From Lachnospiraceae bacterium (GTDB lineage: Bacteria > Bacillota > Clostridia > Lachnospirales > Lachnospiraceae), in assembly GCA_017556805.1 (NCBI GenBank), contig JAFYMC010000027.1, forward strand, positions 31,822 to 95,821: 64,000 nt of DNA. The letters are read 5' to 3'. The stretch's first letter is position 1. Each line of letters starts with the position of its first letter. Shown piece by piece: positions 1 to 15,716 of the stretch. The translations under genes and the position numbers were made by a program. A model generated the notes under the pieces. It searched no databases, was not told the origin of the DNA, and was given only the letters and a program-made list of their open reading frames with translations.

Positions 1-960
1 CGCTCCTACGGAAACCTCCTCTGCCGGCAACTCCTCCTCCGGTAAATCCTCTTCTGCCACAATTTCCGACGCATCTGTTTCCCACATCGGTTCTTCCGTA
101 GCGGCCACTTCCTCCAAGAAGTCATCTTCCGCAACCGCTTCCTGTTGCTCGCCCGCTTCCTCGGCTTCAAAACGTTCCTCTGCCACCGCACGGTATACCT
201 CGGTCAGTGCCAGATGCTCTTCTTCCTCGATACGCTGGGACTCTTCCTCCGCCAATTGCTGTTCCTCAGCAATCCGGCGCTGTTCTTCTTCAAAAGCCTT
301 GCGTTCCTCTTCTTCTCTTGCTCTGCGCTCTTCCGCCTCACGCACACGACGGTCCGCTTCCTGACGAATATCATCCGCCGAAAGCTCTCCCCGGTAATAT
401 GCCTGTAATACCTTTGCACGCTCCACATAGGTACCCTCGCCGAACCAGAGAATCAAATCCGAACACTCTGCCATACACTCTTCTTCCCGGCCCAGCTTAT
501 GATACAGCTTTGCCAGCTCATAAGCATACTTTTCCGTGTATTCCTCTGCCTTTAATGTCTGCAATACCGGCAAAAGCTCTTCGTCCGGTCGATGCATCTG
601 ACGGCCGATCCGGTATTCGAAAATATACCCTCTCGGATCTCCTCCGGAAAGCTTTCCGTATTGCTTTAAATAGGTCTGCGCCTCCTCCGGATTCTTTTCC
701 GCGAGACAAACCTCCATCAGTTCTTCTAACACACGCCAGGTGACTTTTTTCTCATACACGCGCAGCAAAATCTCTTTTGCGGTGGCAAGCTCTCCGCACT
801 TTCTGTAGACCTCCGCCAACAAAAACAAATCCGCGCTGTCTTTTAGCTTCTCCTTGCGGATACTGTCCGCAATTTCTTTTGCGGCCTCATAGTCTCCCGC
901 GTCCGAAAGCGTCCGGATTTCTTCCAGCCGCACAATCGCCCGATAACGTTCAATTCCCAT
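1..960 (-). CDS. TPR-like helical repeat protein with Glu-rich tail (partial, C-terminus beyond window)
   Basis: The reading frame opens at ATG 960 and stays open to the window edge (320 codons), so the C-terminus is missing. Residues 1 to about 210 are paired amphipathic helices with TPR-like spacing (for example AGDYEAAKEIADSIRKEK and CGELATAKEILLRVYEKK). About residue 215 onward becomes a long charged helix of E/R/A repeats and then an acidic Glu/Ala-rich tail. The start lies one base after the stop of the SMC-like gene, and its GGAGG site sits inside the end of that gene, so translation is probably coupled. I infer a scaffold or accessory subunit of the SMC-like complex. The function is unknown; the start and frame are secure. 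Confidence 0.8.
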   Translation of the reverse strand, partial: MGIERYRAIVRLEEIRTLSDAGDYEAAKEIADSIRKEKLKDSADLFLLAEVYRKCGELATAKEILLRVYEKKVTWRVLEELMEVCLAEKNPEEAQTYLKQYGKLSGGDPRGYIFEYRIGRQMHRPDEELLPVLQTLKAEEYTEKYAYELAKLYHKLGREEECMAECSDLILWFGEGTYVERAKVLQAYYRGELSADDIRQEADRRVREAEERRAREEEERKAFEEEQRRIAEEQQLAEEESQRIEEEEHLALTEVYRAVAEERFEAEEAGEQQEAVAEDDFLEEVAATEEPMWETDASEIVAEEDLPEEELPAEEVSVGA

Positions 961-961
961 A

Positions 962-3900
962 CTACACCTCCGAAATATTAAGGCTGGTCTGCTCAAACTG
1001 CAACGGAATATATTCCACCGAGTCTGCCTCCACGCGACTGCAATAATCCACAACCACCGTCTGCTGTCTGCCGTCAATCAGCTTCTGTCCCAATACATAG
1101 TTCACATCAAAGCGCCCCGTAATGGCCGGCGTGGTTCCGCGGGCCGGAACAATAAGCTGTACATGGTTGGCACGAAGTAGTTCAAAAATCGGTTCCCAAA
1201 TATACACATCCTTTGCGGCACCGAACGGGTTATCGATAAAGATGACCTTGCGCAGCCCCGCCGCATCTCCCTTCGGGGAATAAATGCTGGAAATATAGTT
1301 GATGACCGCAATTAAAAACTGAATGTAAATACCCTGAGACTGGCCGGTACTTCCTACCGCTTCCTCATAGCGTAAATGTCTGCTCTGCTCTTTAATACGT
1401 TCCCGCTTATACAACAGTAACTTAATACCGTTCATATCCGATACAATAACGGAAAACAGCTTCTTGTAGGACAAGGCCGTACGGATATATTTCATGCGCT
1501 CCGTCGGATTCGCAATTGCGTCCACCGCCTGTATAACCTCATCGATATAGGCCGTCATCCGCTCTTTGAAGAACTCTTCCTTTACATACGGAATCTGCAG
1601 GGAAATCATCGGAATCTGCTCCCCATCAAGCATGATTCTGGACAGTTTCGGAAGCCGCTCTAAATCCGCCTTTATGTTCAGGCAACGTTGTAAACACTGG
1701 CTCTCGAAGTTTTCCTTAATGGTCTCCAAATCACCCAGCCCCGCCTCAATTCTGGTTCTCTCAAGCTGCAGACACTCCCTCACTTCCTTTAAGCCACGGA
1801 TGACTTCTTCCGTCTCCCGTCTGCTTCTCGGCATCATGACACTGCTGCCGATTTCTTCGGAAAGAGCCTGTGCTCCCAGCACCTGTAATGTCTCCATAGT
1901 CTTCTGGCGGTTCCGGTAAAACTCTTCCTGACGCTTTAACAGCTCTCTTCCGCATGCGGCATAGCGCTCTCTTGCTTCCTTGTAGCACTCTGCCAGACGT
2001 ACGTTATTCTCCAGTCTGCCGCACTCCTCCGTCAGAGCTTCCGCACCTTCAAACATCCGGGCAATTTCATTCCGGATTACGGTATACGCAGAAAGCTCCT
2101 CCGTAAGCTCTGCCTGGGAACGTCTTAGCGCTCCGATGTCCTTTTGCTTCTGCTCCGTTTGCGCTCTACGCTTGGCTATGAACGCAGAAAGAGCTTCTCC
2201 CGTCAGTTCCACCGGATGATACTCGCCGTATTTTTCTATAATAGTTGCTTCCGCCTGGCTGTTCTTTCCTTCCAGACGATACAGCTTTTCCTGCATTTGC
2301 TTTATCTGACGTTCCAGCTGCTCCGTTTCCTCCGCCAAAGAAGCAATCTCTTCTCCGCGTCTGGTCAACTCTGCCTCCGACGTCTCGTACACTTCATTCT
2401 TCTCATACAGCTCCGACAACTCCGCCACACTGAAATCTCTGCTGCGGATATTCCGAAGCAAACGGTTCATTGCTGCCACATAGGAATCCAACAAGCGTTG
2501 CTTGTCCTCCAAAGAGGACGCCTCCGTATGTAACGCCGCAATTTTTCCGTCAATCTGCACCGACAGTTCATTGATATCATAATCTACATTTGCTGCCGGT
2601 CCGTCCGACTCATAAATGGAATAGCTGCTCCAGGTACGGGAAATTTCCTCTCCACGGGCACGCAGACTGTCGACTTCCGCCTTCTTTGCCTCACACTCCG
2701 CTTCCAGGGCTTCTGCCGTTGTTTCCGCATCCTTCTTCCATTCGGTCAGGCGTTCCTTCTTTTTCTGATAGTCCTGTATCGCCTTTTCCTTTTCCTCTGC
2801 CTGCTCATATAACGCAACAATGGCATGATAGGAAAGAATCTCCTTTTCCGTTGCTCCTATTGTATCCCGACAGGTTTCTGCCTCCTCGGAGACCTCCTTT
2901 AAACGGTCTGTAAGAGCGGTCAGGCGCTCCGACTCCTCCCGCAGCTTCTCCTGCAGACTGTCCTCGGTCCGGTCCGTGCCGTACTCCGCCCTCTTGGCAT
3001 ACATGGTATCGTAATACTGCTTTACAAAGCCGGTTAAGAATTCCTCATCCTCTTCGTAAGCCTCTAACAACGTTTCCAGACGACGAATGCCGTACTCGGC
3101 CTCCTCCTCGATTCTGGATAAACGCACAATCTCCTTCTGTCTTGCCTTTTCTTCGAACAACGCCGCACCGTCCCGTACACAAAGAAGCATCTGTTCTCTG
3201 TGGAACAAATCCTTGCCGGCACGTAACGACTCCATGCGGAGTAACGGCACCATTGCCCCCTCCGGTACGCATTCTGCCAGAAGATGGTCATCGAATACCG
3301 TCTCAAATCCCTCTGTAATCACCGCATAAGTGAGCCCCGCATACTTCCTTAACAGCTCCTCCTGCTCCTCCAAGGATTTGGTCTGCAAATACTCTGCACC
3401 GGTCATAGCCTTCTTTTTATGTCTCGTACAAATATATTCCTTTACCGTCTCTGCCGCCTCGGTGGAAGAAAACAGCTCTCCCGCCTCTACTGCCTGACGT
3501 CTTGCCTTCGCCGTCCGCATCTGCTCGGACAACCGGGTCTGCTCGGCATATGCTTCCCTGCAACGGGTACGAACCGCCATGCGAAGGGCACGGTAATCCT
3601 TCTCGCCATAGGCCTCCGCCAGCTTATCCGCCCGGAGCTTCGCCTCGGCAAGCTTCTCCTGCTCTGCTTCCGTCGTCTGCTGCTCCTCTCGATACTTCTG
3701 CAGTTCCGTCCGGGCCTGATGCACCGCATATACCGCATCTTCCCGTTCCTTTGCCAGCTTCTCCGTTTCCTCTTTTAAGGCATTGTATTTAATAGACGCA
3801 GCCACACTGCGCTCTCTGCATTCCTTCTCCAAAGCGACCGCATCTTCCATAAGTAACAGGCCCACCGCATCCTTTTGTTCCTTTATCTTTCCGTACAATA

Positions 3901-5356
3901 CGGACAATTCTTTCTTCGTCTGCTCCGCCAGAACATCAGACACAGCAATTTCCCGCTCTACATCCTTTCTGGAATTCTCCGCCGTTTTGTACTTTAACAG
4001 AGCTCCCGTAGCTGCGCTCTCCGCCTTGGAAACCGCCGCGGCAAGCTCTGCCTCGTAGTGCTCCTTCTTTTCCTTATAGGCACGCACTAACGCGGAAATC
4101 TCCTCCTGAAGACCGTTCCCTTCCGTCATGGCCTGGAGTGTTACCGCCGTCTCGTCCCTCTTTTTCTTCTCCTCTAAGTACTCCAAATAGTCATTGGCAC
4201 ATTCCTTCCTCTTAAGAAGGGCTACCAACGACTCTCTTCTCTCACGCTTCTGCTCCTTTTCGGCTGTCAAACGCTCTACCTGGGTACTGTACTCCTTCGC
4301 CAGCTCCATATCCTCGGAAATCGCCGCGGATAACAGCTCCGCCTCATAGCCGCGCAACTCTTTTTCCGCTTCCGCCTCTGCCGTCTTTAAACGCTCTACC
4401 GCATCCTCCCGGCCATCCAGATAATGTACCGCAGCATTATAAATACGGTTTAACTGGGTCTTTTCGTCCTGCTGCTCTCCGTATACAGAGCCTAAAAGCT
4501 CCACACGGGAGGAAAACTCGGACAGTACTTCCTCCTGCCGGTCAAAGCTGCGCATAGCGTCCTTTTGCTTTGCCAGATCCACCAGCTTATCCTTCATATC
4601 CAGAAGAGTCTGGGACATGGTATCCTCCGCATCCTCCTTGCCCGCCTTTCTGCGGAAAGAGGTACCGAGAATCTCCTCAATCAATAAATCCTCTACTACC
4701 TTACGGGTCGTCTTATAATTGCTCTCGAAATACGTACGTACATGACCCTCGGTCTTATTGATGCCGCGGATAATCTCCCATTCGCTTTCGTAAATACCGT
4801 AATCCGCAATAAAGCTCTGGTACTCTCCCTTACGGTCAAAAATACGTACCACCAGGGAATTATCCCGCTCCAGCTCCTTCAAATAACGGCGAAGGCCGCT
4901 GTAGGTAATCCGCTCCTTATCCTTTACAAGCGGGAGATTGCGAATATCGTTTGCATTATATTCCCGGTAAAAAATACAATAGTTAAAATACTCGATGGAC
5001 GCCGTGTCCTTCGTTTCTCCTTCGGTCTCCGCTGCCTTTCTGGCACAAAAACCGGTGGTCATATATTGAAAACCGTTCTCTATGTTCTCGTCGTCTAATT
5101 TCCACTCAATAAGGGAGTGAATGGTCTTACTGCCCTCGCCGGTACGGAACAACTTCTCAATCGGCTGCTTTTCATCTAGGGTACAATTCGGAATCACATT
5201 CTGTAACAAAAGCAGCATAAGTACACTTTTTCCGCCACCGTTTGCAAGGTCGTACAACGTATTTCCGCAAAACGGCTTCATCAAAAAGTCATCATATGCC
5301 TGGGTTCCGAAATTATATTTTACGTTATTGACACGAATACGGTTAATATGCGGCAC
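962..5356 (-). CDS. SMC/MukB-like coiled-coil ATPase
   Basis: This encodes 1464 aa, close to MukB length. Near the N-terminus there is a P-loop-like NGGGKS (about residues 39-44) after the short strand HINRIRVNNVKYNFG. A very long Glu/Lys/Ala/Leu heptad coiled coil fills about residues 270-1280, interrupted by a more globular, hinge-like stretch. The C-terminal head carries an ABC-signature-like STGQSQG (about 1336-1342) and a Walker B strand KVIFIDNPFG (about 1370-1379). The usual Walker B glutamate is Asn here. I chose the GTG at 5356 because AAAGGAGG lies 8 nt upstream and the protein then begins VPHINRI; an upstream in-frame ATG at 5419 has no good ribosome site and lies inside the preceding gene. 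It overlaps that gene by 14 bp. It is probably the motor of a condensin-like complex. The role (chromosome organisation or DNA defence) is not decided by the sequence. Confidence 0.85.
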   Translation of the reverse strand: MPHINRIRVNNVKYNFGTQAYDDFLMKPFCGNTLYDLANGGGKSVLMLLLLQNVIPNCTLDEKQPIEKLFRTGEGSKTIHSLIEWKLDDENIENGFQYMTTGFCARKAAETEGETKDTASIEYFNYCIFYREYNANDIRNLPLVKDKERITYSGLRRYLKELERDNSLVVRIFDRKGEYQSFIADYGIYESEWEIIRGINKTEGHVRTYFESNYKTTRKVVEDLLIEEILGTSFRRKAGKEDAEDTMSQTLLDMKDKLVDLAKQKDAMRSFDRQEEVLSEFSSRVELLGSVYGEQQDEKTQLNRIYNAAVHYLDGREDAVERLKTAEAEAEKELRGYEAELLSAAISEDMELAKEYSTQVERLTAEKEQKRERRESLVALLKRKECANDYLEYLEEKKKRDETAVTLQAMTEGNGLQEEISALVRAYKEKKEHYEAELAAAVSKAESAATGALLKYKTAENSRKDVEREIAVSDVLAEQTKKELSVLYGKIKEQKDAVGLLLMEDAVALEKECRERSVAASIKYNALKEETEKLAKEREDAVYAVHQARTELQKYREEQQTTEAEQEKLAEAKLRADKLAEAYGEKDYRALRMAVRTRCREAYAEQTRLSEQMRTAKARRQAVEAGELFSSTEAAETVKEYICTRHKKKAMTGAEYLQTKSLEEQEELLRKYAGLTYAVITEGFETVFDDHLLAECVPEGAMVPLLRMESLRAGKDLFHREQMLLCVRDGAALFEEKARQKEIVRLSRIEEEAEYGIRRLETLLEAYEEDEEFLTGFVKQYYDTMYAKRAEYGTDRTEDSLQEKLREESERLTALTDRLKEVSEEAETCRDTIGATEKEILSYHAIVALYEQAEEKEKAIQDYQKKKERLTEWKKDAETTAEALEAECEAKKAEVDSLRARGEEISRTWSSYSIYESDGPAANVDYDINELSVQIDGKIAALHTEASSLEDKQRLLDSYVAAMNRLLRNIRSRDFSVAELSELYEKNEVYETSEAELTRRGEEIASLAEETEQLERQIKQMQEKLYRLEGKNSQAEATIIEKYGEYHPVELTGEALSAFIAKRRAQTEQKQKDIGALRRSQAELTEELSAYTVIRNEIARMFEGAEALTEECGRLENNVRLAECYKEARERYAACGRELLKRQEEFYRNRQKTMETLQVLGAQALSEEIGSSVMMPRSRRETEEVIRGLKEVRECLQLERTRIEAGLGDLETIKENFESQCLQRCLNIKADLERLPKLSRIMLDGEQIPMISLQIPYVKEEFFKERMTAYIDEVIQAVDAIANPTERMKYIRTALSYKKLFSVIVSDMNGIKLLLYKRERIKEQSRHLRYEEAVGSTGQSQGIYIQFLIAVINYISSIYSPKGDAAGLRKVIFIDNPFGAAKDVYIWEPIFELLRANHVQLIVPARGTTPAITGRFDVNYVLGQKLIDGRQQTVVVDYCSRVEADSVEYIPLQFEQTSLNISEV

Positions 5357-6077
5357 CGTCTTCTCCTCCTTTGCTGCTTCGCAGCTGTAACTCGTACAGC
5401 CGTCCCTTTTCCTCTTCAAAATACCGGCGGATCAGCGCGTGCATCCGGTTCGTCGGATAATAGCGTTCCCCCACTTCGGTAAATAAGCCCTGGGCTACCA
5501 TAAAATTAAATACCAGCTTTACAAAACCGCTCTTTGAGCCGCGGCCGGCACGTACCCCCTGGGTATCCTCGTTAGCGATGAGCGGAAGCTCGTCCCAGGA
5601 AATCGCCAGTGCCCTAAAGCTGGTCTCCTCCGGTGTTTCGCTCTCAAACCGGTGAAGCTCCGATACCATGCCGGACAGTCCGTGATTTACCGCCTCAAGA
5701 AGATCCTCCAGCTTAATATATTCTCTGTAATTGTAGGTGGCAGAGTCCTGATAAAAAAGGGCCGCCGCCTGATAAATCAAATAATAGCAAAGATATAACT
5801 CTTTATTTAAACGCAAGCCCATGATGCGTTTTAAGTCATCGTTGGAATATCCGAAGACACGGTTCTTTTCTCCCACAGCTAAATATAATCCGTAATTATA
5901 CTCATACACCCGCAGATTCAGCTTCTTTAACATCAAATCCAGAGCATCACTGACCTCGCCGGACTCGTGATACGCCTCATAAAGTCCCGTATTCTTCCCG
6001 TTTTTTGCCTCCACCGGGTCTCCCACCAGGAGAGCCGCCAAAAGCTCCGTTGCCTTTTCCAAGCTCTTTTGTTCCAT
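5343..6077 (-). CDS. small kite/MukE-like subunit (DUF6063-type)
   Basis: This is a 244-aa soluble protein with alternating helices and short strands, consistent with winged-helix folds (for example the segment with NYREYIKLEDLLEAVNHG and a C-terminal YYPTNRMHALIRRYFEEEKG). It begins 2 bp after the kleisin-like gene and overlaps the SMC-like gene by 14 bp. I believe it belongs to the uncharacterised DUF6063 family, from memory and not from a search. In MukFEB and JetABC operons the gene between kleisin and SMC encodes the kite protein that binds the kleisin middle region. That position is the main reason for the call. Confidence 0.7.
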   Translation of the reverse strand: MEQKSLEKATELLAALLVGDPVEAKNGKNTGLYEAYHESGEVSDALDLMLKKLNLRVYEYNYGLYLAVGEKNRVFGYSNDDLKRIMGLRLNKELYLCYYLIYQAAALFYQDSATYNYREYIKLEDLLEAVNHGLSGMVSELHRFESETPEETSFRALAISWDELPLIANEDTQGVRAGRGSKSGFVKLVFNFMVAQGLFTEVGERYYPTNRMHALIRRYFEEEKGRLYELQLRSSKGGEDGAAY

Positions 6078-6079
6078 CT

Positions 6080-7645
6080 TTATTCCGCCTTTTCTTCCGT
6101 CATCCGTTCAAATACAATTTCTGTTGTTACAAAGGAGGCATCCCGTTCCAGGCCCGCAATCTTATGCACCAGTTCCTCGGCCTCCGGCTTCATTACCAGC
6201 CGGAACTTAAGCCCCGCATATTTCTTCATACCGGACTCTTGTAACAGTTCTGCCAGAATCCCTTCAAAAAACGTATCCTGCTTTGTCCGGACACGATCCA
6301 AATCATACTCCTTCTTCTGGCAGATATGCACCAGGAAGGAATAGTAATCACTGTTCCTAAAGATACCGTCGAAAAACTTCAGCTCCAGCTTCCGGTTCAA
6401 AGCAGAAAGCGATACCCGCTCCGCAGCCAAAAGCTCGTCAAACAAGGTCTTCACAATTGCCGCATAGTTGCCGGAAATACGCTCCTCTTCGATTTCATCG
6501 TCAAAGCGGTACATTTCCTCCTTCGCCTCTTCCACCACCTCGGCGGACTCTCCGCCTTCCGCCGGCAGGGACAAAAGCTCATCCGTCTGCAAAAACGCAA
6601 ACTGCTTTTGCAGCTTCGGGGCCAAAAGCGGCTCCACCAAATGGGCAAGAAGCGTCACATCCTGCGCTTCCTCCGCCGCTGCCACAAATCCGCGGAAATC
6701 AAAAGCTCCCCGCAGACGACTGTATTTATATTTATGAATCATCTCATCGGCACGTACCTGCAGATCCATACAATCGGAAAGCAACTCACCGTGATTTGCC
6801 ATAGCTTTTTTAAGCTCTGTTTCCAGCTGATAAATCCCCCGCAAAGACTCCACATCCTTTACGCCGTCCACGGCCTCCTCCGCTTTGGCCCGGGCCCGTT
6901 CCATCAGCTCCATGTTATGGGAAAACAGCTTCTGTTCCTCGGAAAACCAACGCATTCCGGTTTGGTTAAACTCCTCCAGCGCCTTTACACCGTCAAACAC
7001 ATTGCTTCCCAAAAGAGCCAGCACCTCTCTCTTTTGCAGGCGAAGACGGTTTACCTCGCTGTTGATCCGGCGGATTACATCGATTCCGCCCTTAAAATTC
7101 TTCGTATGTATCATCTTCTCCAACAAAATCTGCTGGATATTAATCTTACTCTCGTCCCGGATTTCTTTTGTGTCCAGATAAAACTCAATGGCATCCGCCG
7201 TCACGGAATACAATACCGTATTTCCCGACAACGTAGCATCAATCAGCTTCATACGCACCGACGCATTTGTCTTTTTTACCGGGTCGAAGTACTCCATCAC
7301 AAAAGGCTTACCGTCATTTTTCAACTTATCGAAAATATAATCCGTCAGTTCCTTTTCTTCCTCCGCCGGCAGCAGCAACTCAAAATCTCTTGTAAGCACC
7401 CCGGAAATAAATGCCGTAATTTCCGGATATGCTATTGGCCGGTCGTTAAACTGGTTCTCCTCAATAAAGAAACGAAGCACCGCCAATGTAATATAGCCCA
7501 TGTCAAGAAAGGCATACTTCCCTTCCTTAAACAAATGAAATGCGGTGTTTTGGAGACAGAAAAACGGGTAATACCGTCTCAGATTCCGCATACGGTCATT
7601 ATGAAAATCTATGATATCATGCAGCATCTGATACGTGCCGTCCAT
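6080..7645 (-). CDS. kleisin/MukF/JetA-like subunit
   Basis: This encodes 521 aa with no signal peptide. Residues 1 to about 170 look like winged-helix and helical modules (MDGTYQMLHDIIDFHNDR, then DMGYITLAVLRFFIEENQF). About 190-340 is strongly helical with heptads, like the helical neck of kleisins. About 365-395 is an acidic linker (EVVEEAKEEMYRFDDEIEEE), followed by a C-terminal globular domain. It lies between the cNMP-fold gene (32-bp gap) and the kite-like gene (2-bp gap). The architecture and place in the operon match MukF and JetA. No sequence motif proves it, so this is an inference from context and fold pattern. Confidence 0.65.
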   Translation of the reverse strand: MDGTYQMLHDIIDFHNDRMRNLRRYYPFFCLQNTAFHLFKEGKYAFLDMGYITLAVLRFFIEENQFNDRPIAYPEITAFISGVLTRDFELLLPAEEEKELTDYIFDKLKNDGKPFVMEYFDPVKKTNASVRMKLIDATLSGNTVLYSVTADAIEFYLDTKEIRDESKINIQQILLEKMIHTKNFKGGIDVIRRINSEVNRLRLQKREVLALLGSNVFDGVKALEEFNQTGMRWFSEEQKLFSHNMELMERARAKAEEAVDGVKDVESLRGIYQLETELKKAMANHGELLSDCMDLQVRADEMIHKYKYSRLRGAFDFRGFVAAAEEAQDVTLLAHLVEPLLAPKLQKQFAFLQTDELLSLPAEGGESAEVVEEAKEEMYRFDDEIEEERISGNYAAIVKTLFDELLAAERVSLSALNRKLELKFFDGIFRNSDYYSFLVHICQKKEYDLDRVRTKQDTFFEGILAELLQESGMKKYAGLKFRLVMKPEAEELVHKIAGLERDASFVTTEIVFERMTEEKAE

Positions 7646-7677
7646 GGTGTTCCTCCTCCCGATATAAAACCCTCGGT

Positions 7678-9957
7678 TTAATGATTTTTATAATATGCCA
7701 TGGTATCGATTAACTCCTGCGGAAGCTCGATACCGTTTTTTGTAATGGCAAAATGGCGAAGCTCTGTTTCACGAAGCTTCTTGGCGCTTTCTCTGCGATA
7801 TCTTGCCATCGCATCCTCAAAGGCCGGCTGCGACACCAGCTGGGCCCGGATATTTTTTTCAAACGGACAATAGGTCGCCATAATTTCTCTGGCCACCTTG
7901 TTTAACTTCATGGCACCGTTTACCTCGTTCTTCATCCACATCTCGTAATCCATGGCAAAGACCTCCCGGTAATTGTTCTTGCCCTTCTGAAGCTGGGCCT
8001 TTACCCGCTCCTTCCGCTCCTCGGAAATATCCCGGTTCTTTTTGTAGTACATCAAATAGTCCGTATACTCTGACGTAAGCGACTTAATCTGGATATTGTT
8101 CCAGGCCGCGCCCTGTACCGTACGGCAAAGCTCCCAACGATACCGGCCGCACACGCGAATCAGTAAATCGTCAATGGATACTTCCGCAAACAAGGGAAGC
8201 AAAAAGCGTCCCGGTGTATCTCTTCTGCGGCAGCTGATATCCTGCCATACGATACTCTTGCTTCCCATGGTCGGGAACAAAATAATATCCGGTAAGATTT
8301 CTGCCATCCGGTATTCTTTTTCAATGCCGAGGTCCTTGTTCATGTATAAAAACTCCCGATAAAACAGGGAGAAGTCCATACTGCGTAACTTATCCACCGC
8401 AGCCTGTACCTTCGCCTTGGACAGGAAAGAACGCTCCGGATCTCCACCCAAAAGCTCCTCGTACAAGAACGGCACAAAAATACTGAGCTGACCGTTTACA
8501 AGACGATGGTTGTAACGGAACAGATTCTGAATCTCGTAATGCAACCGCTCATCATAATCCTTAAACTTTTCCTTTTCTTCTTCCTCGGTAATCTGACCGG
8601 TCTTCTTCTGCTCACGGAGCATCTCGGAGTATTCCTGGTCAAACTCATTCTTAGAAGGCTCTCTCTTTCCCTCGTATACCCAGGAAAGCCACTCCCGGAT
8701 CGTAAATATATGGCATCCGTCCGCTTCGGTATTCACCGGCTCCGACACCAGCTTTTCCAACTCCAACAGCTGGGCACGGGAAATCAACGTTTCGTCTACA
8801 AAACCGAACTCCAGGAACAGGCGGATCGGCAGCGCAATGTCCGTATCCTCCATTCCGTAAGTCTTTCGGAAAATAATCTCGTATATCTGATAAAAAATGT
8901 CGGAAACTTTTCTTCTGAGACGACGTACCTCATCCTCGGTGGATGTCTTATCCTCCAAGGCCGCAAAGCTCTTTAACAGACCGGTAAACTCCGCTCCTGT
9001 CTCTGCAGAAACGCCGGCAAAAGAAAGAATCTGCTCCAGTGCATGTTCGCACGGCTCCTCGCCCTCTGCCACATGCCCTGCACCCTGCTTTCTTGCTTCT
9101 CTCTTTTTCTGATAGCTTTCAAACGGTTCTCCACCGCATTTTTCAAACAACGCAGCAAGCTCCGTCAGCTTTTTCTCCGCCACATCCCTTAACAACACCG
9201 CCGCTTTACGGGTTTCCTCCGTAGTTGCCTTCTCTTCCAGGGAACAAAAATAGAAAAACAGGTTGTCCGCGCCTCCGTTCATCAATACGGAACCCTGACG
9301 TCGTAAAAACGCCCCAAACTTTTCACACTCCCCAAACAACCACCGGAGAATGGTAACCTGCTCCTTAATATGGCGGTATGCCACCTTCGCTCCACAGGTA
9401 AAATAATTCTTCTGTGCCTCTCCCGGAATCTTCGCCGACTCCAAATAGTACTCCAGCCATTCCGGGCTTTCGGACAGCTCTGCTCCGCCCTTTCCGGCAT
9501 TTGGCATATCCGCCGCGCGCAATTCCTCCGCTTTACAACGGGCACAATACTGACGGTATAATTCCTCTACGGCATTCGGCAATCCCTTTGCCTCCTGAAG
9601 ATAACATCCAAGCTTCGTATATAACTCCGTAATCAAACGTCCGAAGGTTGCGGTTACTCTGCCGCTGTATTCCTTATTCCCATCCAGAAACGCCAACAAC
9701 TCCGCATCGGAGGTTGCGGAAAACGCAAAAACCGTCATCTCCTCCGTTGCAATACAGTCGGTATTATAGGTGCCGGCATACATATCCCAAATTCCTAAAA
9801 AATCGCCGCTTACTACCGGCAAACAAACACTGGAGTTTACCAATTTTCCTTTGCCTTTGAGCACGACAAAAATACCGTTCGATTCCGTTCCCGCTTCGAA
9901 CAGCTTCTCGCCCACAGGCACCTGATTCATCGCATTCATTTTCATAGTAATCGCCAT
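7678..9957 (-). CDS. large protein with N-terminal cyclic-nucleotide-binding fold
   Basis: This encodes 759 aa. Residues about 10-110 have the CRP-like beta-roll pattern: an F-E-A-G turn, then GIFVVLKGKGKLVN, then a GDFLGIWD turn and an ATEEMTVFAF strand. The phosphate-binding cassette is degenerate, because the usual Glu and Arg that hold cAMP are not at their expected places. The rest is a long helical region I do not recognise (about 110-560) and a compact C-terminal part with FAEVSIDDLLIRVCGRYRWE. No HTH typical of CRP/FNR is evident, and no Toprim DxD. It is the first gene of the SMC-like unit, so it may sense a signal or a membrane/DNA state for that complex. A weak -10-like TATACT precedes it in the 67-bp gap after tadA. 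Confidence 0.7.
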   Translation of the reverse strand: MAITMKMNAMNQVPVGEKLFEAGTESNGIFVVLKGKGKLVNSSVCLPVVSGDFLGIWDMYAGTYNTDCIATEEMTVFAFSATSDAELLAFLDGNKEYSGRVTATFGRLITELYTKLGCYLQEAKGLPNAVEELYRQYCARCKAEELRAADMPNAGKGGAELSESPEWLEYYLESAKIPGEAQKNYFTCGAKVAYRHIKEQVTILRWLFGECEKFGAFLRRQGSVLMNGGADNLFFYFCSLEEKATTEETRKAAVLLRDVAEKKLTELAALFEKCGGEPFESYQKKREARKQGAGHVAEGEEPCEHALEQILSFAGVSAETGAEFTGLLKSFAALEDKTSTEDEVRRLRRKVSDIFYQIYEIIFRKTYGMEDTDIALPIRLFLEFGFVDETLISRAQLLELEKLVSEPVNTEADGCHIFTIREWLSWVYEGKREPSKNEFDQEYSEMLREQKKTGQITEEEEKEKFKDYDERLHYEIQNLFRYNHRLVNGQLSIFVPFLYEELLGGDPERSFLSKAKVQAAVDKLRSMDFSLFYREFLYMNKDLGIEKEYRMAEILPDIILFPTMGSKSIVWQDISCRRRDTPGRFLLPLFAEVSIDDLLIRVCGRYRWELCRTVQGAAWNNIQIKSLTSEYTDYLMYYKKNRDISEERKERVKAQLQKGKNNYREVFAMDYEMWMKNEVNGAMKLNKVAREIMATYCPFEKNIRAQLVSQPAFEDAMARYRRESAKKLRETELRHFAITKNGIELPQELIDTMAYYKNH

Positions 9958-11514: not shown

Positions 11515-11553
11515 TAAAAAAACGAAAGAATTTGTGAATCTTTTTCGCTGTTC

Positions 11554-11582
11554 TTGCAGTTCCGGCACTTTTGTGCTATTCT
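11554..11582 (+). promoter_or_regulatory. promoter for ltaS
   Basis: -35 TTGCAG (11554-11559) and -10 TATTCT (11577-11582) are 17 bp apart, with about 38 bp to the ATG at 11621. It is divergent from the GNAT-tadA promoter. Confidence 0.6.
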
Positions 11583-11620
11583 ATACAAAATCCATGTTGG
11601 TTTGCCTTTTGGGAGGGATT

Positions 11621-13768
11621 ATGAACACATCAAAAATAAAAGGGTATTTTAAAAAATTACTTTATCAGCTTCGCCTGTTCGCTGCGGAATGTCTCATTCC
11701 GGCAGTCTTATTAAATTTGTGCATCGAAGGCTTTTCCAGAGAATCGGTTATCCGTCCGTTTTTCTACATGATACAATCACCGTTGGTGTTTTTATATAAC
11801 ACCTTACTCATCTGTGTAACACTGACCGTCTCTTTCTTTTTCAAGCGACGGAAGTTTGTGCGTTTCCTGATTTGTGTTCTTTGGCTGGCAACCGGTATTA
11901 CGGACTTTGTTTTATTACAATTCCGCACCACCCCGTTTACTGCGGTGGACCTGCTTTTACTTGACTCGGCCTTTTCCATTATGGGACATTATCTGACGGT
12001 CTTCCAGATTATTCTGGTGGTCCTTGCAATCCTTTTGGTTCTCGGTCTGGGTATCTTTTTATTTTTACGTACCAAGAAAGAAACCGTAGGGACCTCCCGC
12101 ATTTATGCAGGCCTGGTCTTCGGATTGTTTCTTCTGGCAAGCACCGGCTTTACAAACCTGTTTATGTCCTGCGGCGTGTTGGAACGCAACTTCGGTAATC
12201 TGGCACAAAGCTTTCACATCAACGGTCTTCCTTATTGCTTTTTCTCCAGTATTTTAAATACCGGCATTTCCAAGCCGGCATCCTATTCGGAAGAAGAAAT
12301 CGATCGTATTGTATCATCGATTACCGCTTCTCCGGCACCGACCGCAACACCGGTCCCGCAATCCGGAGCAACGCCTCTCCCGACAGGCACACCGGATTCT
12401 ACCGGCTCCCCGGATGCAACAAGCGCACCGGCACCGGAAGGCTCTGACAAACAAACAATTACCGAACATCCGAATTTTATCTTCCTGCAGCTGGAATCCT
12501 TTTTTGACCCGACCCTTATCAAAGGCGCCGAATTCTCTAAGGACCCGGTACCGAACTTCCGCCGGATGAAAGAAAACTTCTCTTCCGGATTCTTGACGGT
12601 GCCGTCCATCGGTGCAGGTACCGCAAACACGGAGTTTGAAATTTTAACCGGTATTAATCTGGACTTTTTCGGTCCGGGAGAATACCCGTATAAGACCGTT
12701 TTGAAGGATACGGTATGCGAAAGCATTGCCTTTAATTTGTCCTCTTTGGATTTAACCTCCCATGCCATCCATAACAACGACGGCACCTTTTACGGCCGTC
12801 ACACCGTATTTTCCCAGTTGGGCTTTGACACCTTTACCCCTATCGAGTATATGGGTTCCTACCCTACCACTCCTCTGGGCTGGGCAAAGGACAGCATCTT
12901 AACCGAACAGATTATGAAAGCACTGCACTCTACCGAAGGACAGGATTTTATCTATACCATCTCGGTCCAGGGACACGGCGCATATCCGGAGGAACCGGTT
13001 TTGGAACACCCGGTCATTACCGTGGATGCCCTTCCGGAGGAGCTGTCGGATTCCTATTACGAGCTTTTGTATTTTGTGAACCAATTATATGAAATGGACC
13101 GCTTTCTGGCCTATTTAACCGCAACCTTAGAGGAATACGAAGAAGAAGTTGTTCTTGTGCTATACGGCGATCACCTGCCTACCTTTCCGTTTACGGACGA
13201 CCTGATGGAAAACGGTTCTGTCTATGAAACGGAATATGTAATATGGACCAATCGTCCGGCCGGAGCACCGGTAGAAAGAGATGTGGAAGCCTACGGTCTT
13301 TCCGCACATGTATTGAACCTTTACGACATTCACGAAGGTTTATTTACAAGGTTCCATCAAACCAATGCGGAATCCAAAACCTATCTCGAAGATATGGAAC
13401 TTTTGGCGTATGACGTTCTGTACGGTTCCTATGAAAGCTACGACGGTGTAGTTCCGTATTATCCGACTAAACTACAATTCGGTCTGGACCCTATCCGGGT
13501 TCGCAGTGCACACTTACATGACGAATTGAAAGATTATTTCTGTCTGTTTATTAACGGAGATAATTTTACACCTTACAGCACCGCATATATCAATGGCGAG
13601 AAGTGCAAAACCACCTATATTAATTCACAACTCATATCCGTCATCGGCTTTGACCTGACCGAGGAACTGAATATCCGGGTGGCTCAGGTAGGTGCGGATT
13701 CCTATCCTCTCTCCTACACAAATGAGATTACTATCTCTCTCGCCCCGGCCTTATATGAGAGAAACTAA
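11621..13768 (+). CDS. ltaS: LTA synthase family phosphoglycerol transferase
   Basis: This encodes 715 aa. Five predicted transmembrane helices lie within about residues 10-210, followed by a flexible Pro/Thr/Ala/Ser linker, then an extracellular sulfatase-fold domain. Active-site-like motifs are NFIFLQLESFFDP (metal-binding Glu), GTANTEFEILTG (nucleophile Thr) and VLYGDHLPTF (metal Asp/His). A C-terminal ~100-residue domain beyond the catalytic core is extra compared with S. aureus LtaS. I chose ATG 11621 because GGAGGG lies 5-8 nt upstream. An ATG 87 nt earlier would add an implausible Cys-rich leader and precede the promoter. It makes lipoteichoic acid or another glycerophosphate polymer at the membrane surface. 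Confidence 0.88.
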   Translation: MNTSKIKGYFKKLLYQLRLFAAECLIPAVLLNLCIEGFSRESVIRPFFYMIQSPLVFLYNTLLICVTLTVSFFFKRRKFVRFLICVLWLATGITDFVLLQFRTTPFTAVDLLLLDSAFSIMGHYLTVFQIILVVLAILLVLGLGIFLFLRTKKETVGTSRIYAGLVFGLFLLASTGFTNLFMSCGVLERNFGNLAQSFHINGLPYCFFSSILNTGISKPASYSEEEIDRIVSSITASPAPTATPVPQSGATPLPTGTPDSTGSPDATSAPAPEGSDKQTITEHPNFIFLQLESFFDPTLIKGAEFSKDPVPNFRRMKENFSSGFLTVPSIGAGTANTEFEILTGINLDFFGPGEYPYKTVLKDTVCESIAFNLSSLDLTSHAIHNNDGTFYGRHTVFSQLGFDTFTPIEYMGSYPTTPLGWAKDSILTEQIMKALHSTEGQDFIYTISVQGHGAYPEEPVLEHPVITVDALPEELSDSYYELLYFVNQLYEMDRFLAYLTATLEEYEEEVVLVLYGDHLPTFPFTDDLMENGSVYETEYVIWTNRPAGAPVERDVEAYGLSAHVLNLYDIHEGLFTRFHQTNAESKTYLEDMELLAYDVLYGSYESYDGVVPYYPTKLQFGLDPIRVRSAHLHDELKDYFCLFINGDNFTPYSTAYINGEKCKTTYINSQLISVIGFDLTEELNIRVAQVGADSYPLSYTNEITISLAPALYERN

Positions 13769-13889: not shown

Positions 13890-15716
13890 ATGAAAAAGAA
13901 ACTTCATGTATTGCTTTCCGTTGTTGCCGCTTCTTTATTTCTCGCGGCATGTAATACAGCTCCGGAACAGGCAAATACCGATATTACCCCTACCGTTGCG
14001 GTAGAAAACCCGAAGGACACCGTTCCGACCGAGGCACCTGCCGCCACAGAAACCCCGGCACCGACCGAGGCCCCTATCGCAGAGCCGTTACCGACTGCCA
14101 CCCCGGCACCGACCGCAACCCCGCGTCCGGATATCTCGGGTGTCAGCTTAAAAGAAATCTACAAAGATGACTTTATGATCGGTACCATCTACAACACCTA
14201 CATTGATTCCGGCAAAGATAACGAGCTGGTAAAACAGCATTTTAATGTAATCACTCCGGAAAACTTAATGAAACCGGAATACATGCAGCGCCCGCAGGGC
14301 ACCTTTAACTTCCGCGAATCCGATCACATGATGAGTATTGCAGAGCGAGACGGCCTTACCGTAATCGGCCATACCCTTGCATGGCACAGTCAGTCCGGCG
14401 ACTTCCTCGGCATCAGGAACAAGGAAGGGAACCCGGTTACCAGAGACGAGGCCATTCAGCAATTGAAGGATCACATCTACGGCGTTGCCGGTCAGTACAA
14501 GGGAAAGATTTATTCCTGGGACGTTTTAAACGAAGCCATTGCCGACGGTGCCAAACTCGGAGAAGACGGCGACTGGACCAAGTGCCTTCGTGATACCCAA
14601 TGGACCCGTTCCATCGGACCGGAGTTTGTTGCCATGGCCTTCCAATTTGCTCATGAAGCAGCTCCGGATGCCCTTTTATACTACAACGACTACAACTTAA
14701 ACGACTCCGAAAAGGCCAAAATTGCTGCTGCCATGGTGGCGGATTTACGTTCCCAGGGTGTTCCGATTCACGGCATCGGTATGCAGGGACACTACAGCAT
14801 CAATACCGGTCTTGGTTCTGTACGCAACAGCCTCAAGCTGTTTTCTCAGATTGAAGGCATTAAGATTTCAGTTACCGAGCTGGATGTCGGCGTTCCTAAT
14901 TCCAACGGAAAGCTCTCCTCCCAGAACGAAAAGAAGCAGGCTCTGTTTTATGCAAAGCTGTTCTGCATTTACAAGGAGTATGCGGATGTCATCGAACGTG
15001 TTACCTTCTGGGGCTATCGTGACGATACCAGCTGGAGAAGCGAAAATTGTCCGCTTCTGTTCAATAAGGATCTCACTCCGAAGGAAGCTTTTTACGCTTT
15101 AATGGATCCGGAGGCATATATTGCGGCCGCGGATGCGGAAGAAAAGGTAGTAGCCCGTGTAGCGAACGCAAGCTACGGAACTCCGGAAATCGACGGAAAG
15201 AAGGACGCTGTCTGGTTACAGGAGACCATGCCGTATAAGATTAACACTCCGCTTTTCGCTTATCAGGGAGCTACCGGTACGGTTCGCATTCTTTGGGATG
15301 AACATTATGTTTATACCTTATTTGAAATTACCGACAAAGACTTAAATGCCGACTCCTTCCAGATGCACGAGCAGGATTCCGTTGAATTATTCCTGGATCC
15401 GGAAAACATGAAGGAAGATTACTTTACCGACTACGCCGGCCAGTACCGCGTAAACTATAAGGGAGAGCTTTCCTTCGGTACGGTTCCGACCACCGAAGGC
15501 GTAAAGGCTGCCGCAACCAAAACCGCAAACGGCTATCTCATAGAGCTTGCAATTCCGGTTAAGAATACACTTGCCGCAGGCATGACTCTGGGCTTTGAAG
15601 CACAGATTAACGACAGTAACAACTCCGGTATGCGTCAGAGTGTCATGAAGTTTAATGACTCCACCGACAATTCCTACATGTCCACTGCACTTTGGGGCGA
15701 GCTGTTATTGAAGTAA
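13890..15716 (+). CDS. GH10 endo-1,4-beta-xylanase lipoprotein with CBM9-like domain
   Basis: This encodes 608 aa. The lipoprotein signal ends with lipobox FLAAC (Cys21), then a Pro/Thr linker to about residue 80. The GH10 catalytic domain (about 85-420) shows ENLMKPEYMQ, HTLAWHSQ, the acid/base Glu in WDVLNEAI (E215) and the nucleophile in SVTELDVGV (E330). The C-terminal domain (about 430-608: PEIDGKKDAVW, VRILWDEHYVYTLFEITD, DSVELFLDPEN) fits family 9 carbohydrate-binding modules. GGAGG precedes ATG 13890. It hydrolyses xylan at the cell surface. Together with the four-CBM lipoprotein at 34457-36631 it points to plant-fibre use. Confidence 0.94.
   Translation: MKKKLHVLLSVVAASLFLAACNTAPEQANTDITPTVAVENPKDTVPTEAPAATETPAPTEAPIAEPLPTATPAPTATPRPDISGVSLKEIYKDDFMIGTIYNTYIDSGKDNELVKQHFNVITPENLMKPEYMQRPQGTFNFRESDHMMSIAERDGLTVIGHTLAWHSQSGDFLGIRNKEGNPVTRDEAIQQLKDHIYGVAGQYKGKIYSWDVLNEAIADGAKLGEDGDWTKCLRDTQWTRSIGPEFVAMAFQFAHEAAPDALLYYNDYNLNDSEKAKIAAAMVADLRSQGVPIHGIGMQGHYSINTGLGSVRNSLKLFSQIEGIKISVTELDVGVPNSNGKLSSQNEKKQALFYAKLFCIYKEYADVIERVTFWGYRDDTSWRSENCPLLFNKDLTPKEAFYALMDPEAYIAAADAEEKVVARVANASYGTPEIDGKKDAVWLQETMPYKINTPLFAYQGATGTVRILWDEHYVYTLFEITDKDLNADSFQMHEQDSVELFLDPENMKEDYFTDYAGQYRVNYKGELSFGTVPTTEGVKAAATKTANGYLIELAIPVKNTLAAGMTLGFEAQINDSNNSGMRQSVMKFNDSTDNSYMSTALWGELLLK

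Follow-up and report, generated by a model that had tools for sequence, protein, structure and literature searches.

The 64,000-nucleotide stretch of Lachnospiraceae DNA analysed here (the window; positions 31822-95821 of contig G000:C28, in a 2.9 Mb, 86% complete assembly of 37 contigs) begins with five genes, three of which encode the JetA, JetB and JetC subunits of a Wadjet type III system, with no adjoining gene for the JetD nuclease. The five genes are under purifying selection, the core is inherited in a manner resembling that of RpoB, and its carriers retain ScpA. Our reading, held at about even confidence, is that the locus encodes a structural maintenance of chromosomes (SMC) complex derived from Wadjet type III, belonging to a lineage without JetD, and retained alongside Smc-ScpAB as a second motor, condensin-like and acting on the chromosome. 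The five genes are as follows.

7678-9957, minus strand: gene for a protein with a cyclic nucleotide monophosphate (cNMP) fold, 759 residues; open reading frame (ORF)
6080-7645, minus strand: jetA-like gene (Wadjet type III JetA, presumed kleisin), 521 residues; PADLOC PDLC00560
5343-6077, minus strand: jetB-like gene (Wadjet type III JetB, DUF6063, presumed KITE), 244 residues; PADLOC PDLC00571, PF19539
962-5356, minus strand: jetC-like gene for an SMC ATPase (Wadjet type III JetC), 1464 residues; PADLOC PDLC00581
1-960, minus strand: 5' part of a TPR/acidic linker/AAA-like gene; whole gene G000:C28:30943-32781, 612 residues

The ORF calls bore out the packing described in the initial annotation of this DNA, with all five genes on the minus strand where it had placed them and gaps of 32, 2, -14 and 1 bp between them; the jetC start codon is GTG, preceded by AGGAGGAG. 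The fifth gene, which had been called TPR-like with at least 320 residues, does encode TPR, and its full 612 residues add an acidic linker and an AAA-like domain. In the 15.8 kb of contig past the window edge, aroK- and murA-like genes come next after this one. The nearest named record to the locus is a Lachnospiraceae metagenome-assembled genome (MAG; L144), with a JetA identity of 96%. Among 10 genomes of the window's genus, the five-gene order was whole in 7 and partial to the contig end in 2, and the remaining genome (72% complete) held a cNMP-fold fragment only; the full order in 7 of the 10 agrees with the expectation that gene order in relatives would not be random.

All three core proteins matched the Wadjet type III subunit families of PADLOC: JetA matched JetA3 (PDLC00560) with an expect value (E) of 1.7e-196, JetB matched JetB3 (PDLC00571, E 1.5e-92) as well as Pfam PF19539 (DUF6063, E 7.8e-47), and JetC matched JetC3 (PDLC00581, E = 0, 1609.6 bits). 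The initial annotation held for its SMC-type core, the A-B-C order and the lack of JetD among the five genes. Its proposal of a distinct SMC subtype was not borne out by sequence, as the core falls in known Wadjet type III families. The added genes on which that proposal drew are not specific to the core, and its view that one of them is sensor-like is doubtful, as described below. The F-E-B gene order of condensins is matched by JetA-JetB-JetC. The labels kleisin (JetA) and KITE (JetB) are presumed from names and gene order, and the one pointer to a kleisin fold is an AlphaFold2 model of JetA built with 59 sequences (predicted local distance difference test 81.9, predicted template modelling score 0.41). 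The model combines helices and strands at the N-terminus with long helices in the centre and a C-terminal domain of mixed helix/strand make-up, which on our own reading looks kleisin-like and resembles MukF. Searches of PDB sequences with JetA and JetB, and with their type I counterparts, gave nothing convincing.

SMC ATPase motifs were found in both head halves of JetC, in the window and in its relatives. The window protein has Walker A NGGGKS, signature GSTGQSQG and Walker B IFIDNPFG, as read in translation. Among 45 JetC sequences of relatives, 44 of which cover the sites, Walker A and a Walker B of DNPFG (DN rather than DE) were present in 44/44, and the signature GSTGQSQG was present in 42/44, with SGGE in the other two (L059, L060). 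Asn therefore replaces the catalytic Glu in type III JetC (at about 1200-1250 of the window, minus strand) with or without JetD, whereas type I JetC from the same family has Walker B DEAF in 15/15. Loss of this Glu was considered as a mark of JetD loss and rejected, since DN also occurs in the JetD-bearing loci L056, L059 and L060.

JetD was not seen among the ORFs inspected in the first 14 kb of the window or in the 15.8 kb past its edge. None of the ORFs in that outer part was seen as Toprim, and the Toprim gene that might have lain just beyond position 1, for which a check had been advised, was rejected on reading the contig there. JetD_C (PF09983) gave no match in the whole 86% complete assembly. 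The operon therefore lacks the JetD (Toprim) nuclease of Wadjet type III. Of 61 genomes searched, the window assembly among them, 15 had JetD_C, and in its genus 2 of the 10 genomes did. In a survey of 299 Lachnospiraceae genomes, JetA was found in 38 and JetD_C somewhere in 102, three of the latter below the Pfam cut-off, including one JetA carrier (G259). JetD_C was on the JetA contig in 0/38 JetA genomes, a count limited by fragmentation (the G183 contig starts 128 bp before jetA).

A further set of named loci comprised the best 80 of 168 confirmed, overlapping the other locus set; 79 had a JetA ORF, and in 73 of these the sequence reached 1200 bp or more upstream of jetA. JetD was upstream of jetA in two of the 73 (L199 and L213), both matching PADLOC JetD3, and in L191 a C-terminal JetD fragment of about 57 residues (E 8.6e-05) lies directly before jetA, in the right place. 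Concealment of JetD by the ORF filter was rejected, as a six-frame search of 128 loci returned only L056, L059, L060, L061, L199, L213 and the L191 fragment. In type III loci that carry JetD (L056/L199, L059, L060, L061 and L213), the order is D-A-B-C. On the JetA tree, L199, L191, L201, L213 and L220 group together in a single clade (support 100/98); because the outgroup lies very far away, the root and the number of JetD losses are unsure.

A JetD encoded elsewhere in the genome could serve JetABC in trans, as the 102 family genomes and two genus members with JetD_C might suggest. We regard this as extremely improbable. No JetD_C is found in the window's assembly, and a JetD elsewhere in the genome occurs no more often among JetA carriers (13/38) than among other genomes (89/261; Fisher p = 1). 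In addition, JetA- and JetC-length genes adjoin JetD in 18 of 19 separate JetD loci (20 were fetched, and the twentieth, a 3.7-kb contig, was left out), indicating that most of these separate JetD proteins come with a core encoded beside them.

One part of the JetA tree holds full-length jetA genes that adjoin neither a recognised jetB nor a recognised jetC (L183:4147-5688, L203:9501-11069, L204:9483-11048 and L221:4326-5933). These lone genes, together with four genomes (L082, L083, L103 and L112) that keep the cNMP-fold and TPR/AAA-like genes with no JetABC between them, are what a decaying Wadjet would leave behind if JetD were lost first and the rest were on its way out. Such a remnant is very improbable for the window, where the frames are open and the ratio of nonsynonymous to synonymous substitution (dN/dS) against four genus relatives was 0.03-0.09 for all five genes, close to that of murA (0.01-0.055); these values are rough, as many dS exceed 1 and one value is undefined. 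The five genes are under purifying selection, and JetABC without JetD persists across many genera.

We compared tree distances of the encoded proteins with those of RpoB. For JetA the Spearman correlation was 0.776 (n=30, the RpoB loci returned from 32 genomes asked, of the 38 with JetA), with 0/500 permutations as high and values of 0.67-0.87 in 19-genome subsamples; the window's own genome gave no RpoB match. JetB (0.649, n=29) and the TPR/AAA-like protein (0.773, n=22) were also correlated with RpoB. The control was a set of JetD-bearing Wadjet loci from 20 family genomes, with A of about 470, B 220, C 1110 and D 410 residues; one of these loci, L264, was checked with PADLOC and is type I. 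Here correlations with RpoB were 0.164 for JetA (39/1000 permutations as high), far under the type III value, 0.295 for JetC (3/1000) and 0.286 for JetD (15/500, n=20). The JetA and JetC values have n=18, as G292, which has no gene of JetC length, and G278, on a short contig, were excluded. Distances involving dnaX and recR (n=11) were weak or inconsistent (rpoB-dnaX 0.24, rpoB-recR 0.22, dnaX-recR -0.14, JetA-dnaX 0.18, JetA-recR 0.40), and no conclusion is built on them.

The neighbours of JetABC are household genes, namely dnaX-recR, tadA/aroK/murA, aconitase, glgB-type and transketolase genes. A MAG contig labelled Alistipes (L158) shows the Lachnospiraceae-type dnaX-recR-JetABC layout, probably through mis-binning. 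Carriage on mobile elements was rejected, as no JetA relatives were found in viral contigs, plasmids or phages, in searches whose positive control, type I JetA, was weak (5 plasmid and 2 phage records). ScpA was found in 289/299 family genomes, in 38/38 JetA genomes and in the window's genome; replacement of Smc-ScpAB in the style of MukBEF was accordingly rejected. Inheritance resembling that of RpoB, household neighbours and the retention of ScpA all fit a second condensin.

As to mechanism, we infer loop extrusion, a chromosome function and physical partnership. A total-extrusion model, with ATP-driven extrusion of DNA loops, is proposed for Wadjet in part of PMC10586767, and the opening of the abstract of PMC12647877 takes Wadjet loop extrusion as given. 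By analogy with JetABC and MksBEF, JetC would be the motor, JetA the presumed kleisin and JetB the presumed KITE, and JetC dimers, together with JetA and JetB, would carry out ATP-driven extrusion of DNA loops. With no JetD present, a small circle on which a loop had been completed would not be cut, and the likely product of extrusion would be DNA compaction or segregation. The TPR/AAA-like protein would be the most probable partner, as a scaffold, loader or regulator.

The window part of this fifth gene matched TPR_19 (E 2.5e-08), and the family profile matched the PDB sequences of CbbX (2e-20) and EccA1 (2.7e-13). The protein scored 26.3 bits against a CbbX family cut-off of 459 bits and lacks an intact Walker B. 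In the AAA part, Walker A is often kept and Walker B is mostly hhIE-x-AG, in an alignment with a few misaligned rows and a few that keep a Glu. The protein is probably a poor ATPase, with little or no hydrolysis, to judge from these motifs. Degeneracy of the AAA domain as a sign of partnership with JetABC was rejected, since genomes lacking JetABC show a degenerate Walker B just as those with it do. Family matches (E <=1e-6) occurred in 290/299 Lachnospiraceae genomes, an upper bound because some are partial; among the matches listed, about 75 span the profile by our count. Neither added gene is specific to the core: the TPR/AAA-like family is found in 290 genomes and the cNMP-fold family in 103, against only 38 for JetA. 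Examples of the TPR/acidic-linker/degenerate-AAA family are L109:6586-9594 and L104:6150-9158, and its genes are often near aconitase or glgB-type genes.

Of the 38 JetA genomes, 35 could be assessed for the TPR/AAA-like gene: by our count 27 have it downstream of JetC, a few of them across one intervening gene, and 8 have none there, while in the other 3 the contig ends. In the named set it was within 2.5 kb in 32/65. It might be that only JetABC is the unit, the cNMP-fold and TPR/AAA-like genes being co-transcribed neighbours with separate jobs, a proposal that we find somewhat doubtful for the five genes as a whole. Both added families occur without JetABC, and four genomes have them together without it. 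Nevertheless, the TPR/AAA-like gene stays beside JetABC through changed surroundings (dnaX-recR-JetABC-TPR/AAA-transketolase, tadA-cNMP-JetABC-TPR/AAA-aroK-murA and aconitase-JetABC-TPR/AAA; another setting has a murE-like gene in between), and only 5 changes of this link occur along the JetA tree, compared with at least 16 and a mean of 22 in 200 label shuffles. A different neighbourhood downstream of jetC, without the TPR/AAA-like gene, is conserved in L133, L138, L141 and L142, where malic enzyme, MoxR AAA, DUF58 and transglutaminase-core genes follow JetABC (identities from one member searched per cluster), with a radical-SAM-like gene between JetABC and malic enzyme in L138, L141 and L142.

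The N-terminus of the cNMP-fold protein (residues ~13-83) is cNMP/CRP-like, scoring 20.2 bits against PF00027, under the cut-off of 27.5, and the family profile matches PDB proteins of the CRP/PKA-R type down to 4.7e-06. A strongly conserved C-terminal region of about 450 residues (~300-759) corresponds to no Pfam family. Cyclic-nucleotide-binding domains contact their ligand through a ribose-binding Glu and a phosphate-binding Arg; on reading the alignment, neither was in place in 15 family sequences, so that the sensor-like role once suggested for this gene is doubtful. The family occurs in 103/299 family genomes and in 19/38 JetA genomes (p = 0.04), and its gene adjoins jetA in 4/38 JetA genomes and 10/69 named loci. 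Every adjoining case falls within a single clade, and within that clade L149 is without the gene. In two of the four genomes with both added genes and no JetABC, a single gene separates them. The cNMP-fold protein is a clade-specific, looser neighbour of JetABC, perhaps regulatory, and for this gene the status of mere neighbour is more likely than partnership. Two genes next to the cluster run in the opposite direction; on reading their sequences, they encode a sulfatase/LtaS-like membrane protein (11534-13768) and a xylanase-like (GH10) lipoprotein (13890-15716).

Several observations weigh against a second condensin. JetA is patchy in the family (38/299), which would be unusual if the chromosome needed it, and at some loci jetA is all that is left. 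The Mks motor of C. glutamicum is described, in part of PMC10123090, as having no chromosome role, yet it has its nuclease. The GSTGQSQG signature and DN Walker B are non-canonical, so that hydrolysis by JetC, as far as motifs can tell, is not assured. No profile similarity was detected between type III JetA and JetB and those of type I. One JetA-tree clade (32 rows, some not assessable) shows no TPR/AAA-like neighbour, and the partner is therefore not obligatory. Subfamilies may be mixed in the type I control sets, an effect that would lower their correlation with RpoB, and these sets are still weakly correlated; the positive control of the mobile-element searches was, as noted, weak.

The best alternative is defence without cutting, in which JetABC would recognise small circular DNA and, without JetD, block it by compacting or silencing it, or with the help of an effector not yet recognised as such, for which the TPR/AAA-like and cNMP-fold proteins are candidates. 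The JetABC subunits do fall within PADLOC Wadjet families, their occurrence is patchy, and cNMP-fold proteins with an uncharacterised C-terminal part adjoin JetABC in one clade. We nonetheless judge it unlikely: the cNMP-fold protein had no PADLOC match (E up to 1), nor did the whole TPR/AAA-like protein (E up to 0.001), both families are widespread without JetABC, and RpoB-like inheritance and housekeeping neighbours speak for another role. The N-terminal part of the TPR/AAA-like protein alone gave two weak PADLOC matches, the best at 0.00092 (Csx1/Csm6).

Returning to a second condensin, we tentatively propose, with less than even confidence in the whole, that a type III Wadjet lost its nuclease early in Lachnospiraceae and their kin and became a vertically inherited second condensin, with a near-universal TPR/AAA-like scaffold that binds nucleotide and hardly hydrolyses it and, in one clade, a cNMP-fold protein without the cyclic-nucleotide contacts. 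Since the motor genes lack a nuclease gene and are inherited like household genes, the locus suggests that a defence machine has been re-used for the cell's own chromosome. MksBEF and MukBEF have been proposed as cases in which a defence SMC system became a chromosome organiser. With close relatives that have JetD, a JetD remnant or no JetD, some in named cultured strains, such a switch is directly testable here; carriers of the locus include Diplocloster agilis (L159), Anaerosporobacter faecicola (L154) and Catenibacillus scindens (L206). Wadjet calls from JetABC models alone would score such nuclease-free loci as defence. The locus also draws attention to an uncharacterised, nearly family-wide TPR/AAA-like protein.

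The literature background was drawn from parts of PMC10586767, PMC12287153, PMC10123090, PMC10197239 and PMC8954581. A search of titles and abstract openings, without subscription papers or preprints, found neither a JetD-less type III JetABC nor its TPR/AAA-like neighbour, which is not proof of novelty. Type III Wadjet operons are reported in three strains of Weizmannia coagulans in a passage that describes Wadjet as jetABCD and does not mention JetD-less loci (PMC8954581). MksBEF of P. aeruginosa is described in a part of PMC10586767 as acting on the chromosome and as a probable product of JetD loss.

Compared with Wadjet type III (JetABCD), the window locus shares strong PADLOC matches of JetA, JetB and JetC and the A-B-C order, and differs in having no JetD and a TPR/AAA-like gene downstream, whereas its JetD-bearing relatives are arranged D-A-B-C. 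It differs from the P. aeruginosa condensin MksBEF, which is without MksG, in that its core belongs to the type III and not the type I lineage, its A and B subunits have no detectable profile similarity to type I, a TPR/AAA-like neighbour is present, and Smc-ScpAB stands alongside in Lachnospiraceae. MukBEF has the gene order kleisin-KITE-SMC and a large SMC protein. The window core has the same order and a large SMC, with the JetA and JetB folds presumed; no Muk family was among the library matches of the window proteins at E up to 1, in libraries whose Muk content was unchecked. Unlike MukBEF, it has not replaced Smc-ScpAB, which is kept in JetA genomes. EccA joins TPR to AAA+. Among the EccA/CbbX/SpoVK AAA+ proteins, the fifth gene product shares the CbbX-class AAA domain and the joining of TPR to AAA seen in EccA, and is set apart by scores far under the NCBIfam cut-offs, a catalytic Glu that is mostly lost in the family and a long acidic linker.

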